From: a bacterium
Lineage (GTDB): Bacteria; SZUA-79; Acidulodesulfobacterales; Acidulodesulfobacteraceae
Direction of reading: 5' to 3'
NCBI GenBank assembly: GCA_021789455.1
Contig: JAJYJN010000014.1
Coordinates: 1-23,107, forward strand
Length of the DNA: 23,107 nt
Both the position numbers and the translations under genes were made by a program. Position 1 is the first letter of the stretch. Each line of letters begins with the position of its first letter. This document shows, piece after piece, positions 57 through 21,714 of the stretch. Below the pieces are notes generated by a model. It ran no database searches, had not been told where the DNA came from, and saw only the letters and a list, made by a program, of their open reading frames with translations.

Positions 57-785
57 CTATATTGCCGTATTGGATATTGCATTATTCTGCAATTCCGTGA
101 TTTTTGCAACCGCCTTTTTAGAAAGGTCATAAAGCTTGCCGAAAACTTCAAATTCTATGGGCGTTTTTTCGGCGCATCCCTGAATTTCGATAATTTTTTG
201 GCTGCCCGTCAGTATAAAATTAAAATCCAGATCGGCGGTCGAGTCTTCCGAGTAATCTAAATCTACCAGAATTTCTCCGTTTACTATGCCTATGCTTATT
301 GCGGCGACGGAGTCGTAAAACGGCATTTTTTCAATTTTTTCTTGTTTTATGAGATTTAAAAACGCTAAGTATGCGGCTACGTAAGCGCCGGTTATGGAAG
401 CCGTTCTCGTTCCGCCGTCGGCGCTTATAACGTCGCAGTCTATAAGAATAGTTATGCCGGGAAAATATGAAAAATTAATAACCGACCTAAGCGACCTGCC
501 GATTAACCTCTGTATCTCCTGCGCCCTTCCGTTTACTTTTCCTTTTGACGAATCCCTCGGTATTCTGCTTTGCGCAGACCTTGGGAGCATCGAATATTCC
601 GCCGTAAGCCATCCCTCTTCTTTGTCTTTTAAAAACGGCGGCACCTTATAATCCACGGATGCGGTGCATATTACTTTAGTATCTCCGACTTCTATTAGGC
701 AGGAGCCCTCGGCATATTTCATATAACCCGGAGTTATAAGCATAGGTCTCATTTCATCTACAGCCCTGTTATTATTTCTCGACAT
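57..785 (-). CDS. rph: Ribonuclease PH
   Basis: Phosphorolytic 3'-to-5' exoribonuclease that trims the 3' ends of tRNA precursors in the cytoplasm, using phosphate and releasing nucleoside diphosphates. The 242-residue length is normal for the family. The N-terminus carries the usual RAxDEMRP segment (residues 7-14). The conserved core PRSAQSRIPRD and a later SADGGTRTASITGAY stretch, which contributes to the phosphate site and catalytic core, are intact. The ATG at 785 lies seven bases after the stop of the TusA-like selenoprotein gene and has only a weak Shine-Dalgarno, so translation may depend on the upstream gene. It is the last recognisable gene of the long minus-strand run. The remaining 56 bases to the window edge show no convincing terminator. 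Identification is secure from the sequence. Confidence 0.96.
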   Translation of the reverse strand: MSRNNNRAVDEMRPMLITPGYMKYAEGSCLIEVGDTKVICTASVDYKVPPFLKDKEEGWLTAEYSMLPRSAQSRIPRDSSKGKVNGRAQEIQRLIGRSLRSVINFSYFPGITILIDCDVISADGGTRTASITGAYVAAYLAFLNLIKQEKIEKMPFYDSVAAISIGIVNGEILVDLDYSEDSTADLDFNFILTGSQKIIEIQGCAEKTPIEFEVFGKLYDLSKKAVAKITELQNNAISNTAI

Positions 786-791
786 TCTTAT

Positions 792-1049
792 TTATTCCCA
801 GTTTTTATTTTTTATAAAAAATACGTAAAGGTCTTTTAAGTTTACCGCATTTAGCAACTGCACGCCCATTAAAGAACATAATGCGGGTATATCGTTTAAC
901 AAAGAATCCTTATCCGAAATTACGGTTAAGATATCGTTTTGTTTCAAAGTTTTAAGTTTACGGACGACCGCCCATACCGGAGGGCCTCAGCAAAGCCCCC
1001 TGATGTCGAGTACGTTAACGCCGTAATTTAATAATTGTTTGTTCTCCAT
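792..1049 (-). CDS. TusA/SirA-like selenoprotein, read through an in-frame UGA (Sec21)
   Basis: Reading the UGA at 987-989 as selenocysteine gives an 85-residue protein starting MENKQLLNYGVNVLDIRGLC, then Sec21, GPPVWAVVRKL and onward to a TAA at 792-794. It aligns without gaps to the TusA/SirA/YedF family: LDxRGL, then the catalytic position (Cys19 in E. coli TusA, Sec21 here), the final Pro of CPxP, a V..V/I..D strand and the DIPxxC motif with a conserved downstream Cys. The family carries persulfide sulfur for tRNA thiolation, sulfur trafficking or redox chemistry; the substrate here is unknown. The ATG has a strong AAGGAG at about five bases. UGA is an ordinary stop elsewhere in this window (glyA, valS, the fusion gene) and Trp is TGG within this same gene, which argues against a changed code. 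A SECIS-like hairpin follows the UGA. The main alternative is a nonsense mutation or sequencing error. Confidence 0.82.
959..989 (-). promoter_or_regulatory. Bacterial SECIS-like hairpin for UGA recoding
   Basis: Ten bases after the UGA (987-989) the mRNA can form a hairpin from UAUGGGCGGUCGUCCGUA (976-959): a 7-bp stem with two wobble pairs and a GGUC tetraloop (969-966). The loop begins 17 bases after the UGA. From memory, E. coli fdhF has a GGUCU apical loop about 18 bases after its UGA, and the loop G and U contact SelB. Both loop sequence and spacing therefore match what is known of bacterial SECIS elements. A competing helix (GGGGGC with GCCCUC) would place the UGA in its loop. Folding was done by eye. 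Confidence 0.75.
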
Positions 1050-1099
1050 TTTTACTCCTTTATAATTTGATTAGTTAAGTTTTTATAAGCCGAATTAAC

Positions 1100-1561
1100 T
1101 TATTTAACCTTTATCGCCGCATCTAAAATACCGTTAATAAATGCCGGCGATTCGTCGTTTCCGAATTTTTTTGCGATTTCTACCGCCTCGTTAATAACGA
1201 CGTTTTTGGGAGTTTCAGGTACAAAAATAATTTCGTAAATAGAAAGCCTCAATAAATTTCTGTCCACGCGGGACATTCTTTCTATACTCCAGTTTTTGGA
1301 AATATTTTTTATTACTTCGTCGATTTTTTTTAAATTTATCAGCGTTCCATTAACTATGGAAGAAAAAAAATCGAATATTTCCGCGGTATCTTTCTTTTTA
1401 TTTAAATCTTCTTTTGTTTTTATAAATCCGTCTCTCTTTAGACTTTCCACGGCAAAATCGTTATAAAATCTGTTTATTTTATAATCTAAGTTGCTTATAT
1501 CGCCGTCTTCTTCATATAAAAATTGCAGCGCCAGCTCTCTTGCTTTTCTTCTTTTAGTCAT
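1100..1561 (-). CDS. nusB: Transcription antitermination factor NusB
   Basis: All-helical RNA-binding protein that works with NusE (S10) on boxA RNA in ribosomal RNA antitermination. The 153 residues show the family signature: RRKARELALQFLYE at the N-terminus, the central WSIERMSRVDRNLLRLSIYE segment, and the C-terminal PKNVVINEAVEIAKKFGNDESPAFINGILD. It follows ribH by 17 bases, the ribH-nusB order common in proteobacteria. The ATG at 1561 lacks a strong Shine-Dalgarno, so coupling to ribH is possible. The charged insert around residues 35-60 is longer than in E. coli NusB but within family variation. Identification is secure. Confidence 0.96.
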   Translation of the reverse strand: MTKRRKARELALQFLYEEDGDISNLDYKINRFYNDFAVESLKRDGFIKTKEDLNKKKDTAEIFDFFSSIVNGTLINLKKIDEVIKNISKNWSIERMSRVDRNLLRLSIYEIIFVPETPKNVVINEAVEIAKKFGNDESPAFINGILDAAIKVK

Positions 1562-19413: not shown

Positions 19414-21714
19414 ATGAACAATAAGGTTTTACTTATATCGGTTGACAACCTCAGATACGACTGCGTTAGCTATATTAAAAACAGACCTCATCTGAAACAA
19501 TTTTACGTCGAAAATTTAGTAGATACGCCCACGTTAGACGAAATCGCCGAAAACTCCACGGTTTTTACCGATTGTTTTTCCACCTCGAGCTATACGACTG
19601 CGGCGCATGCCTCTTTATTTACCGGATTGTTACAGCCCAAGCACGGTTTAAGGCCTTTTTTTTATAAAAAAATGAGGACAGACTGCGCGACTCTAGCGGA
19701 AATTTACAAAAATAGCGGCTATAAAACCATATTTTATTCAGACGTTATAGAACTTTTTCAGCCTTTGGGGCTTACCAAGGGATTCGATTTTATATATGCA
19801 AACGATATTAATCTGCTTTTTAAACAAATTTCGGCTTTAGAAAACGAAAAGGTATTCTGTTTCATACATCTTTTCGACATTCACGAACCTTATATTTTTT
19901 CGCAAAATTATAACGAAAATCATTATAACGACGACTATTTTGCATTCATAAATAAAATGTCCTCTTTATACAAAATACCCGTTCAGAATAATAATCCTTT
20001 CACTCTCTGGAATAATTTTTCCGGAAAAGTAAATTACGGGGTGCAAATTATGCTTCCCCCATACATTTACGGGGTCAATAAATTCGACAAAGGGCGCTTC
20101 AGGCTTATATACGGTTTTTTAAAAAATGCCGGATATTTTAACGATGAAAATATATATTCTATTTTTGCCGACCACGGAGAAGGCAGAATAGTTTTCTACG
20201 ATATGCCGGTTTTCGGCCATATGGGCGAACTTTTCGACGAAGTCATAAAAATACCGCTGATACTGCATGCGCCGCAATTAGAAAAAGGAGTAAATAATAA
20301 ATTAGCTTCTATAGTAGATTTATTTCCGACCTTGATCTCTTTATCCGGTTTAAAGGTCATTCCCGACGATAAAAGCGCCCCATCAGGTTCAAATTTAATC
20401 GAAACGGACGGATTATCTTTACTTGGAGAAAAAGAAAGAGAATACTGCTATTCGGAATTTTGCACGCAAAATATGTACAACGAAATAATGCAATTTTCCG
20501 CCGGCGTTTATGACAGAAGCAAAAACGGCGCCTCTTTTAAAGACAAGTATTTCCTGTCTCAACGCTCGATAAGGACTAAAGACCGTAAATATTTATTCAT
20601 TCCGGATAATATTTTGCAGTCGGAAGCAAAAAAAATCTTAGAAAACATTAATCTTTCCGATGAAGACTTTATAATAGAAATGTTTAACTCAGTTATGAGA
20701 AAAAGGGTCGGCAAACCAGAATACCTGTTTCTCCTCAATTCGCTTAAATCGAAACAGACTACCAGACAAAACATTTATCAAAGCATGATAACTTCGGAAA
20801 TTTATAACAGGCCTAAAAATTATTATTTCGACCTTATAAACGACCCGCTTGAAGAAAATTTCAATGCATTAAATACTTCTCTATCTGATTCCATAAAATA
20901 TATCGAAATATTAAACGAAATAGAAAGCCATTCATTTATAAGCGAAAACTTATTCGACGATAAAAGCGCAACCGGCAAAAACGGCGCACGCATTATATTT
21001 AACCAGCCGGAATCCGATAAAAACATAGCGGCTGAATCTCTTGCGCTTCTTGAACAAAAAATTTCGCTCGGTATAGAAATTATTAAAGAAGCGGAAGACA
21101 GATATGGAGATAAAATCGGCATAGCATTCACGGGCGGTAAAGATTCAACCGTTTTATTAGACTTGATAAGACGCTCGAAAAATGGGAAAATACCTTTTAA
21201 GGTTATTACCATAGATACGTCGGCAGAATTCCCCGAAATTAAAGAATTTATGGAAAAATTAAAATCCGCATGGAACTTTGAAATTGTAAAATACTCAAAC
21301 AATGAAGCACTTCGGCAAAAATATCCTATAGCTAAAGATAAAACCGACTGCTGCAACACCCTTAAAACTATTCCTCTTAAGGAGTCTATTAAAGATCTTC
21401 ATCTTAAAGCTATGTTTACCGGAATAAGAAGGGATGAAAACGAAGCCAGGGCAAACGAATCCTATTTTTCTAAAAGAAAAGACCCCCACCATTTCAGAAT
21501 TCATCCTTTGCTTCATTTTACGGAAAAAGATATATGGGATTATATCAAGTTTAATAATCTTCCGTACTGCAATCTCTACGAACAGGGTTACAGATCTATA
21601 GACTGCGCGCCCTGCACTCATAAAACCTCGGAACAAGATGCCGCCGAACGCTCCGGGCGCTCACAGGATAAAGAAGCCGCCATGGACAAACTGCGTCAGC
21701 TTGGATATTTCTGA
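19414..21714 (+). CDS. Fusion of a sulfatase/alkaline-phosphatase-like hydrolase with a CysD/PAPS-reductase-type PP-loop domain
   Basis: A 766-residue, probably cytoplasmic protein (no signal peptide) of unknown function. Residues 1 to about 510 are an alkaline-phosphatase-superfamily domain: ISVDNLR (Asp11, Asn12), STSSYTTAAHASLFTG, HLFDIHEPY (152-160), FADHGE (Asp253, His254), FGHMGELFDE (His269) and a sulfatase-like tail YYFDLINDPLEEN. Against the sulfatase signature CxPxR, the nucleophile position is Thr61 and the Arg is His65, so a formylglycine sulfatase is unlikely. Residues about 540-766 are a PP-loop ATPase: GGKDST (574-579), TGIRRDENEARA, GYRSIDCAPC and a CysD-like MDKLRQLGYF end. 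Cys646, Cys647, Cys731 and Cys734 match the CC...CxxC [4Fe-4S] set of APS reductases, but the catalytic ECGLH tail is absent. It starts one base after recR without a clear Shine-Dalgarno. Each domain is clear; the joint role is not. Confidence 0.85.
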   Translation: MNNKVLLISVDNLRYDCVSYIKNRPHLKQFYVENLVDTPTLDEIAENSTVFTDCFSTSSYTTAAHASLFTGLLQPKHGLRPFFYKKMRTDCATLAEIYKNSGYKTIFYSDVIELFQPLGLTKGFDFIYANDINLLFKQISALENEKVFCFIHLFDIHEPYIFSQNYNENHYNDDYFAFINKMSSLYKIPVQNNNPFTLWNNFSGKVNYGVQIMLPPYIYGVNKFDKGRFRLIYGFLKNAGYFNDENIYSIFADHGEGRIVFYDMPVFGHMGELFDEVIKIPLILHAPQLEKGVNNKLASIVDLFPTLISLSGLKVIPDDKSAPSGSNLIETDGLSLLGEKEREYCYSEFCTQNMYNEIMQFSAGVYDRSKNGASFKDKYFLSQRSIRTKDRKYLFIPDNILQSEAKKILENINLSDEDFIIEMFNSVMRKRVGKPEYLFLLNSLKSKQTTRQNIYQSMITSEIYNRPKNYYFDLINDPLEENFNALNTSLSDSIKYIEILNEIESHSFISENLFDDKSATGKNGARIIFNQPESDKNIAAESLALLEQKISLGIEIIKEAEDRYGDKIGIAFTGGKDSTVLLDLIRRSKNGKIPFKVITIDTSAEFPEIKEFMEKLKSAWNFEIVKYSNNEALRQKYPIAKDKTDCCNTLKTIPLKESIKDLHLKAMFTGIRRDENEARANESYFSKRKDPHHFRIHPLLHFTEKDIWDYIKFNNLPYCNLYEQGYRSIDCAPCTHKTSEQDAAERSGRSQDKEAAMDKLRQLGYF

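Follow-up and report, generated by a model that had tools for sequence, protein, structure and literature searches.

The gene lying between nusB and rph in the window, by which we mean the whole 23,107-nucleotide stretch of DNA analysed here, very probably encodes a selenoprotein in which the sulfur-accepting cysteine of a small sulfur carrier of the TusA fold has been replaced by selenocysteine (Sec), and we refer to it as Sec-TusA. The frame reads MENKQLLNYGVNVLDIRGLC-U-GPPVWAVVRKLKTLKQNDILTVISDKDSLLNDIPALCSLMGVQLLNAVNLKDLYVFFIKNKNWE, with one TGA at codon 21 and TAA as its final stop in the translation of the minus strand, and the one plus-strand frame checked over the same nucleotides is full of stops. 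A preliminary description had reported this 85-residue frame with its single UGA, a ribosome binding site and a tight fit between the neighbouring genes, all of which hold, with gaps of 50 nt to nusB and 6 nt to rph (Table 1). Among the relatives, inspection by eye found G-rich sites before the start codon in many of 27 loci and a weak or absent Shine-Dalgarno sequence in some, such as L008. The ribH gene also lies upstream, together with nusB, in 27 of 27 loci, and these neighbours, of which we take nusB and rph to be such by sequence recognition rather than family search, offer with rph no link to sulfur or selenium. Elsewhere in the window, positions 19414-21714 of the plus strand encode a 766-residue protein with an N-terminal sulfatase domain (PF00884, residues 5-312) and a C-terminal PAPS reductase domain (PF01507, residues 570-737), an unusual-looking fusion in a sulfur-metabolising lineage.

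Table 1. Features of the Sec-TusA locus, in positions of the window
Feature	Position	Strand	Basis
Sec-TusA gene, 85 residues, predicted Sec at position 21	792..1049	-	ATG 1047-1049, TAA 792-794; PF01206 match; 27 relatives with one TGA each
In-frame TGA, predicted to be read as U21, motif L-C-U-G-P-P-V	987..989	-	TGA in 28/28; aligns with Cys19 of E. coli TusA
Candidate SECIS apical hairpin UAUGGGC-GGUC-GUCCGUA, +11 to +28 after TGA, loop GGUC at +18 to +21	959..976	-	Covariation; energy against synonymous-codon shuffles; single folds
Shine-Dalgarno-like AAGGAG, 5 nt upstream of ATG	1055..1060	-	Sequence
Second conserved Cys, C58 (...DIPALC)	876..878	-	TGT or TGC in 28/28; aligns with Cys56 of E. 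coli TusA
nusB, upstream neighbour	1100..1561	-	Upstream in 27/27 loci
rph (RNase PH), downstream neighbour	57..785	-	Within 1.5-kb flank in 25/27 loci

Incorporation of Sec at codon 21 is strongly supported at the level of sequence, by a conserved TGA at the catalytic position, coding that continues past it, a SECIS-like hairpin on its 3' side and Sec machinery in the lineage. The TGA stands at codon 21 in all 28 sequences compared (the window and 27 other loci), where it is always preceded by Cys and followed by Gly. As in a bacterial selenoprotein gene, the frame remains coding beyond this in-frame UGA: pairwise differences after the TGA, uncorrected for relatedness, are 0.228, 0.103 and 0.490 at codon positions 1, 2 and 3, and third positions differ far more than second positions before the TGA too, a bias which, past the TGA, argues that the part after it is selected as protein. 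In a search of 99 genomes, the best match in 27 of the 30 family genomes carried exactly one internal TGA, at 59-98% identity, and the nearest genome to the window, G001, has 95% of sampled 31-letter words in common with it. If the TGA were a plain nonsense mutation or a sequencing error in a pseudogene, truncated gene calls such as those described below would be expected, but this reading is vanishingly improbable and in practice already refuted, since the TGA is found in 28 of 28 sequences, the codon-position bias extends past it, the hairpin covaries and the sel genes are there. Decay in the sister genomes, which the preliminary description had named as a sign against it, was not seen: the TGA is kept in 27 of 27, evolution past it is protein-like and the hairpin covaries, and with this TGA recurring in 27 other genomes, a sequencing error in the window is very unlikely.

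When 5.8 billion proteins were searched with a profile, 55 matches were obtained, consisting of 25 fragments, 28 proteins of Cys type and 2 full-length proteins (P0002 and P0003) with Trp at the TGA position. The fragments (P0004-P0027 and P0034) begin after the TGA position, in keeping with the earlier expectation that gene callers would miss or truncate the gene; some are named TusA-related sulfurtransferase or hypothetical protein, one comes from a Nitrospirae bacterium, and the DNA ahead of them is known only for those from loci analysed here. The two Trp proteins would fit decoding of UGA as Trp in the lineage, through a variant code or a suppressor, yet P0002 differs from the G024 protein at no other position, and the codon in G024 is TGA. 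Furthermore, TGA terminates 6 of the 22 window genes checked and lies inside none of them, TGG occurs at the Sec codon in none of the 28 sequences, and the Cys-type homologues have Cys there, so that decoding as Trp is scarcely credible; both this reading and that of a pseudogene were rejected on the codon evidence. The Trp of P0002 most likely arose when genes were called with table 4 on a contig of 615 bases, and table-4 calls on short contigs probably account for P0002 and P0003 alike. As expected for a bacterial selenoprotein with Cys homologues, Cys occupies the Sec position in all 28 Cys-type matches covering it, in the motifs CCSAP, CCSTP or CCAQP accompanied by S[DN][KN]xSM[LI][NH]DI.

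Codons +6 to +8 after the TGA, which specify Ala-Val-Val, read GCG GTC GTC in 26 of the 28 sequences and are frozen individually, with GCG in 27 of 27 cases of Ala and GTC in 28 of 28 and 27 of 27 cases of Val. Across 22 window genes, by comparison, GTC accounts for 20% of 407 Val codons, and at codon +4, a conserved Val, the sequences use GTA 17 times, GTT 10 times and GTC once. The frozen C-GGUC-G at +17 to +22 belongs to a hairpin in which +11 to +17 pair with +22 to +28 around a GGUC loop, and among 27 sequences (24 distinct) the 7-bp helix pairs in 95.8% of cells and the GGTC loop is invariant. Covariation in the helix is 0.358 compared with 0.169 +/- 0.029 in shuffles that ignore the relatedness of the sequences, none of 500 shuffles reaching the observed value, and register-shifted hairpins give at most 0.112; two of the five covariation measures were not above the shuffles, namely pairs changed on both sides (239/500) and further pair types (118/500). 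The pair +14/+25 is G-C, U-G or U-A among relatives, +13/+26 is U-A, U-G or C-G and is broken in three, and +12/+27 is A-U or U-A and is broken in four. RNAalifold found the same helix unprompted, plus a two-pair helix nearer the TGA. In all 28 sequences the hairpin energy is lower than the mean of synonymous-codon shuffles (mean z -2.5), though it is unremarkable in single cases such as L012, for which 214 of 1000 shuffles were as low. Folding the 59 nt around the TGA in the window alone gave a different hairpin (z -0.14), and it took the alignment of relatives to bring the element to light. Neither the window nor loci L088 and L089 gave a match in Rfam gathering scans, a result that we do not count as evidence on SECIS elements. 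The position and the GGUC loop are, we presume, in agreement with those of the E. coli fdhF SECIS, and the selD genes of G001, G015 and G003 can form, with pairing done by hand, a hairpin whose loop likewise starts at +18. A stem-loop with a conserved apical loop thus lies immediately downstream of the UGA, as in bacterial selenoprotein genes, and judged on the aligned sequences the covarying hairpin is a predicted bacterial SECIS element.

The preliminary description had proposed a search for the selenocysteine machinery, and most of it was recovered: in 19 family genomes, which are relatives of the window's organism and not its own assembly, matches over curated cut-offs were obtained for SelA in 17, SelB in 17, SelD in 19 and tRNA-Sec in 15. 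The selD gene itself has one in-frame TGA in each of the 19 genomes, placed within TSAHG-U-GCK in G001, G015 and G003, and ARAGORN identified tRNA-Sec(tca) in all five loci given to it, of seven family loci fetched. The part of the expectation left unfilled is tRNA-Sec in G001, G003, G008 and G016, where neither the Rfam model over its cut-off nor BLAST with the G004 gene found it, the tRNA scan having scored only part of the candidates in 14 of the 19 genomes, including G001 and G003, and all of them in G008 and G016. These include the two genomes with the protein closest to that of the window, G001 and G003, and ARAGORN also found no tRNA-Sec in the 16-20 kb around their sel genes. Six tRNA-Sec loci were inspected, and in five of them the gene adjoins what by eye we take to be fba; G003 has fba (L092, G003:C12; E <= 1e-60) with no tRNA-Sec beside it, and fba was not found in G001, G008 or G016 at the same threshold. 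Because G001 and G003 have SelA, SelB and a TGA-containing selD, we read the missing tRNA-Sec in these two genomes as non-recovery, and regard it as the weakest link of the case. Overall the Sec-TusA interpretation is supported, in that, of the three outcomes that would speak against it, the two put to the test did not occur, leaving the one gap of tRNA-Sec in G001 and G003.

Within the family, the gene is widespread but not universal. Genome G012 provides a natural empty site (L077, G012:C131), in which nusB is followed after a short gap by rph with no Sec-TusA gene in between, indicating that not every family member needs the protein. Genomes G013 and G026 also lack a match, but nusB itself was not found in them either. 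A scan of contigs with the patterns DIRGLCCG, which is built on Cys codons and is not expected to detect a TGA, and PPV[WLR]AVVxKL gave 23 loci in named genomes, all 23 with the TGA and GCGGTCGTC; the scan rests on the second pattern, and divergent relatives are therefore missed. The named loci include those of Candidatus Acididesulfobacter diazotrophicus AP1, SZUA-79 and Nitrospirae bacterium BP4.bin67 (L073), and the lineage with Sec-TusA includes Candidatus Acidulodesulfobacterales. The paralogue G029:C14, a weak match within the family, also has a TGA, but this is located upstream of the start; the gene is an ordinary TusA of CPVP type and was rejected.

Outside the family, no match with a TGA was found at E <= 1e-6 in 356 genomes, with 386 searched and at most 13 candidates considered per genome. 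Two genomes of another phylum, G387 (BP4.bin67, labelled Nitrospirae) and G408, hold relatives with the same TGA and loop, and they are the only 2 of 395 genomes of the phylum of G387 with matches at E <= 1e-10, both with the TGA frame. The Nitrospirae copy, whose genome has SelA, is neighboured by a universal stress protein on a contig of 7.6 kb. The G408 copy (L089, G408:C117; TGA at 1678-1680 of the locus, minus strand) is a divergent frame reading IIDVRGLC-U-GDPV...SDKIASLSDIPAWC, with SDIPAWC after the GDPV, and carries GGGAG ahead of its ATG. Its 5-7 bp hairpin, with GGTC at +18 to +21, was matched in stability by 40 of 1000 synonymous shuffles. No SelA candidate was found in G408, a fragmented assembly that also carries a Cys-type CCAQP copy (L088), and we regard L089 as a possible, unproven second example of Sec-TusA. 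A tree built from few columns, with long branches and without L089, unites the 28 Sec rows in one clade (100/99), which also contains the post-TGA fragment P0034. The Nitrospirae row groups within the family, a hint of gene transfer or of misbinning.

With Cys put at the TGA, the protein matches the Pfam TusA family PF01206 at E 1.5e-12 and 47.6 bits against a cut-off of 28.6. An AF2 model is TusA-like (mean pLDDT 85.8), and its best PDB match by Foldseek is E. coli TusA from the complex with IscS (TM 0.77/0.84, E 7.7e-6); the protein almost certainly has the TusA fold, and score and fold together place it in PF01206. The gapless alignment with TusA-family proteins claimed at the outset, including the DIPxxC motif, was confirmed with E. 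coli TusA, pairing U21 with Cys19, C58 with Cys56, D53 with Asp51 and K47 with Asp45. The passages of the IscS-TusA paper used here describe Cys19 as the sulfur acceptor, about 4 Å from the sulfur of IscS Cys328, with Asp45 hydrogen-bonded to the NH of Cys19 and Asp51 4.2 Å from its sulfur. The Sec therefore sits at the position of the nucleophile, where the preliminary description had placed the persulfide Cys, and with Asp45 replaced by Lys the canonical function of TusA cannot be assumed. The active-site motif also departs from CPxP, as had been noted, being UGPP in 27 of the 28 sequences and UGTP in L027.

Other TusA-like genes occur in the same genomes. Genome G001 has three more, one of them between iscU-like and iscS-like genes, which makes the Sec copy look like a specialised extra. 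The product of one G001 locus (L080:3025-3282), which lies downstream of what we take by eye to be an ArsR-like regulator, is TusA-like but divergent, has the motif SCCMPP and matches PF01206 at E 9.2e-10. Family genomes G012, G020, G023 and G024 also carry a CCSAP or CCSVP copy (L083, L082, L084 and L081, respectively), close to nitroreductase-like and TetR-like genes whose domains were checked in G024, and in G012 this Cys-type copy is present although the Sec gene is absent between nusB and rph.

Compared with the corresponding sulfur forms, selenols have greater acidity and selenolates stronger nucleophilicity, properties that would be of use to an acidophile in transferring sulfur. In the mechanism we propose, SelB with Sec-tRNA would dock on the C-GGUC-G hairpin and Sec would be inserted at the UGA. 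The selenolate of U21, with C20 adjoining and K47 and D53 expected nearby, would then take sulfane sulfur from a donor, which may be a cysteine desulfurase, a rhodanese or a DsrE-type protein, and hand it on to an acceptor, while the vicinal C20 could resolve an Se-S intermediate. Sec-TusA might thus form one specialised branch of a multi-TusA sulfur relay in an acidophilic sulfate-reducing, possibly sulfide-oxidising lineage. The available text of PMC6776010 describes the order Candidatus Acidulodesulfobacterales, which includes AP1, as sulfate-reducing and possibly sulfide-oxidising and as having dsrAB, dsrD, dsrL and dsrEFH; it also lists sirA and sirA-like transcripts among those in only one of two expression profiles. 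We infer the carrier role, the partners and any role in selenium delivery, and put the chance that the protein is a sulfane-sulfur carrier at about even.

An unlikely, though not negligible, alternative is that Sec is inserted into a redox enzyme or chaperone, in which a Cys-Sec selenenylsulfide reduces disulfides or peroxides, or in which the pair binds a metal. The vicinal C-U, C-C in the Cys homologues, is unlike the canonical CPxP of TusA, the family's closest Cys homologue in G024 adjoins a nitroreductase and a TetR regulator, and a 2026 review (PMC13188914) considers that most uncharacterised selenoproteins likely serve redox functions. These points are to be set against the TusA fold, the location of Sec exactly at the sulfur-acceptor position, the retention of the Asp51 equivalent and the second Cys, and the sulfur-based lifestyle that the available text of PMC6776010 reports for the host order. 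More improbable still is that Sec-TusA carries selenium, passing a perselenide or selenosulfide to SelD and so allowing the cell to control its own selenoprotein synthesis. The Sec gene does need SelD for its own synthesis, and the TusA-like domain protein YedF is tied to SelD by gene neighbourhood and co-occurrence in the sources available in part, but those sources describe YedF itself with CPXP, that is, with Cys, the neighbours in the loci checked are nusB, ribH and rph rather than sel genes, and in G001 the Sec-TusA gene lies on a contig other than that of selA and selD. Returning to transfer of sulfane sulfur, a wider proposal that we hold tentatively, as somewhat less probable than the carrier role itself, is that a CU/CC-type TusA subfamily forms a dedicated Sec-based sulfur (or selenium) carrier branch, in which, among acidophilic sulfur bacteria and in some representatives of a second phylum, selenium would stand in for the carrier sulfur and would make the transfer of sulfane sulfur into dissimilatory sulfur metabolism faster or tolerant of acid, or deliver selenium to SelD.

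The preliminary description had stated that Sec was reported in some SirA/YedF-like proteins, and this found no support: YedF is described with CPXP in the text available, and the table of PMC13188914 has no TusA or SirA. That 2026 inventory of prokaryotic selenoproteins counts 119 families or subfamilies, and its text and Table 1 name no TusA/SirA, YedF, PF01206 or COG0425. The main text of the deep-Sep paper has no SirA, TusA or YedF, and the available part of a 2022 review lacks SirA and TusA and names YedF once, as a selenium-related protein. Among the leading titles pairing selenoprotein or selenocysteine with TusA or SirA, none concerns a Sec-containing TusA; supplements and a 2026 groundwater survey with further candidates lie outside this search, and we make no claim to priority. 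Given the absence of TusA from the PMC13188914 list, Sec-TusA looks like an undescribed selenoprotein family, and it would add a probable new family to the prokaryotic selenoproteome. If the interpretation is true, the literature searched contains no earlier example of a sulfur-relay carrier with the TusA fold that uses selenocysteine, and this would be the first. In TusA, which is central to sulfur transfer, the chemistry depends on a single nucleophilic Cys, and a natural Sec version, conserved within a bacterial family and with Cys relatives, would permit a direct test of what selenium contributes to persulfide transfer, especially at low pH. The interpretation also makes sense of a group of truncated database entries named "TusA-related" or "hypothetical", and the compact candidate SECIS, C-GGUC-G at +17 to +22, should be useful for recognising more members.

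Sec-TusA exhibits likeness to several known systems and is identical to none of them. It resembles E. coli TusA (YhhP; PDB 1DCJ, 3LVJ) in fold, in length, in having Sec or Cys at the Cys19 position and in keeping the second Cys of DIPxxC and the Asp51 equivalent, but differs in having Sec for Cys, UGPP for CPEP, Cys for Arg before the Sec, Lys at the Asp45 position and a predicted SECIS in the gene. It also falls below the NCBIfam equivalog cut-off for TusA proper (NF001423; 47.1 against 78 bits). With the YedF or SirA-like proteins (TIGR03527, PRK11018) it shares a TusA-like domain and a link to selenium, whereas TIGR03527 proteins are described, in the text available, with CPXP and a fused DsrE-like domain; Sec-TusA is a single domain of 85 residues with no DsrE-like domain fused at its C-terminus, and its scores are 27.4 for PRK11018, where the cut-off is 79, and 14 for TIGR03527, where it is 110. 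In NCBIfam release 20.0, 27 family members match only TusA and YedF models (E <= 0.001), with no selenoprotein model among the matches. Since the cut-offs or motifs of TusA proper and YedF are not reached, the gene is classed as a selenoprotein gene encoding a TusA-domain protein, and as neither of these two. The CC-type TusA-like proteins (28 matches among P0028-P0056, and copies in G012, G020, G023, G024 and G408) are the nearest Cys homologues found, with vicinal Cys at the same place and an SDK/NDIP-type signature, and differ in having Cys rather than Sec, SAP, SVP or AQP rather than GPP, no internal stop and other gene neighbours where these were seen. Finally, the rhodanese-like and DsrE-like selenoproteins are likewise from sulfur-relay-type families that acquired Sec, and they belong to other Pfam families, PF00581 and PF02635.
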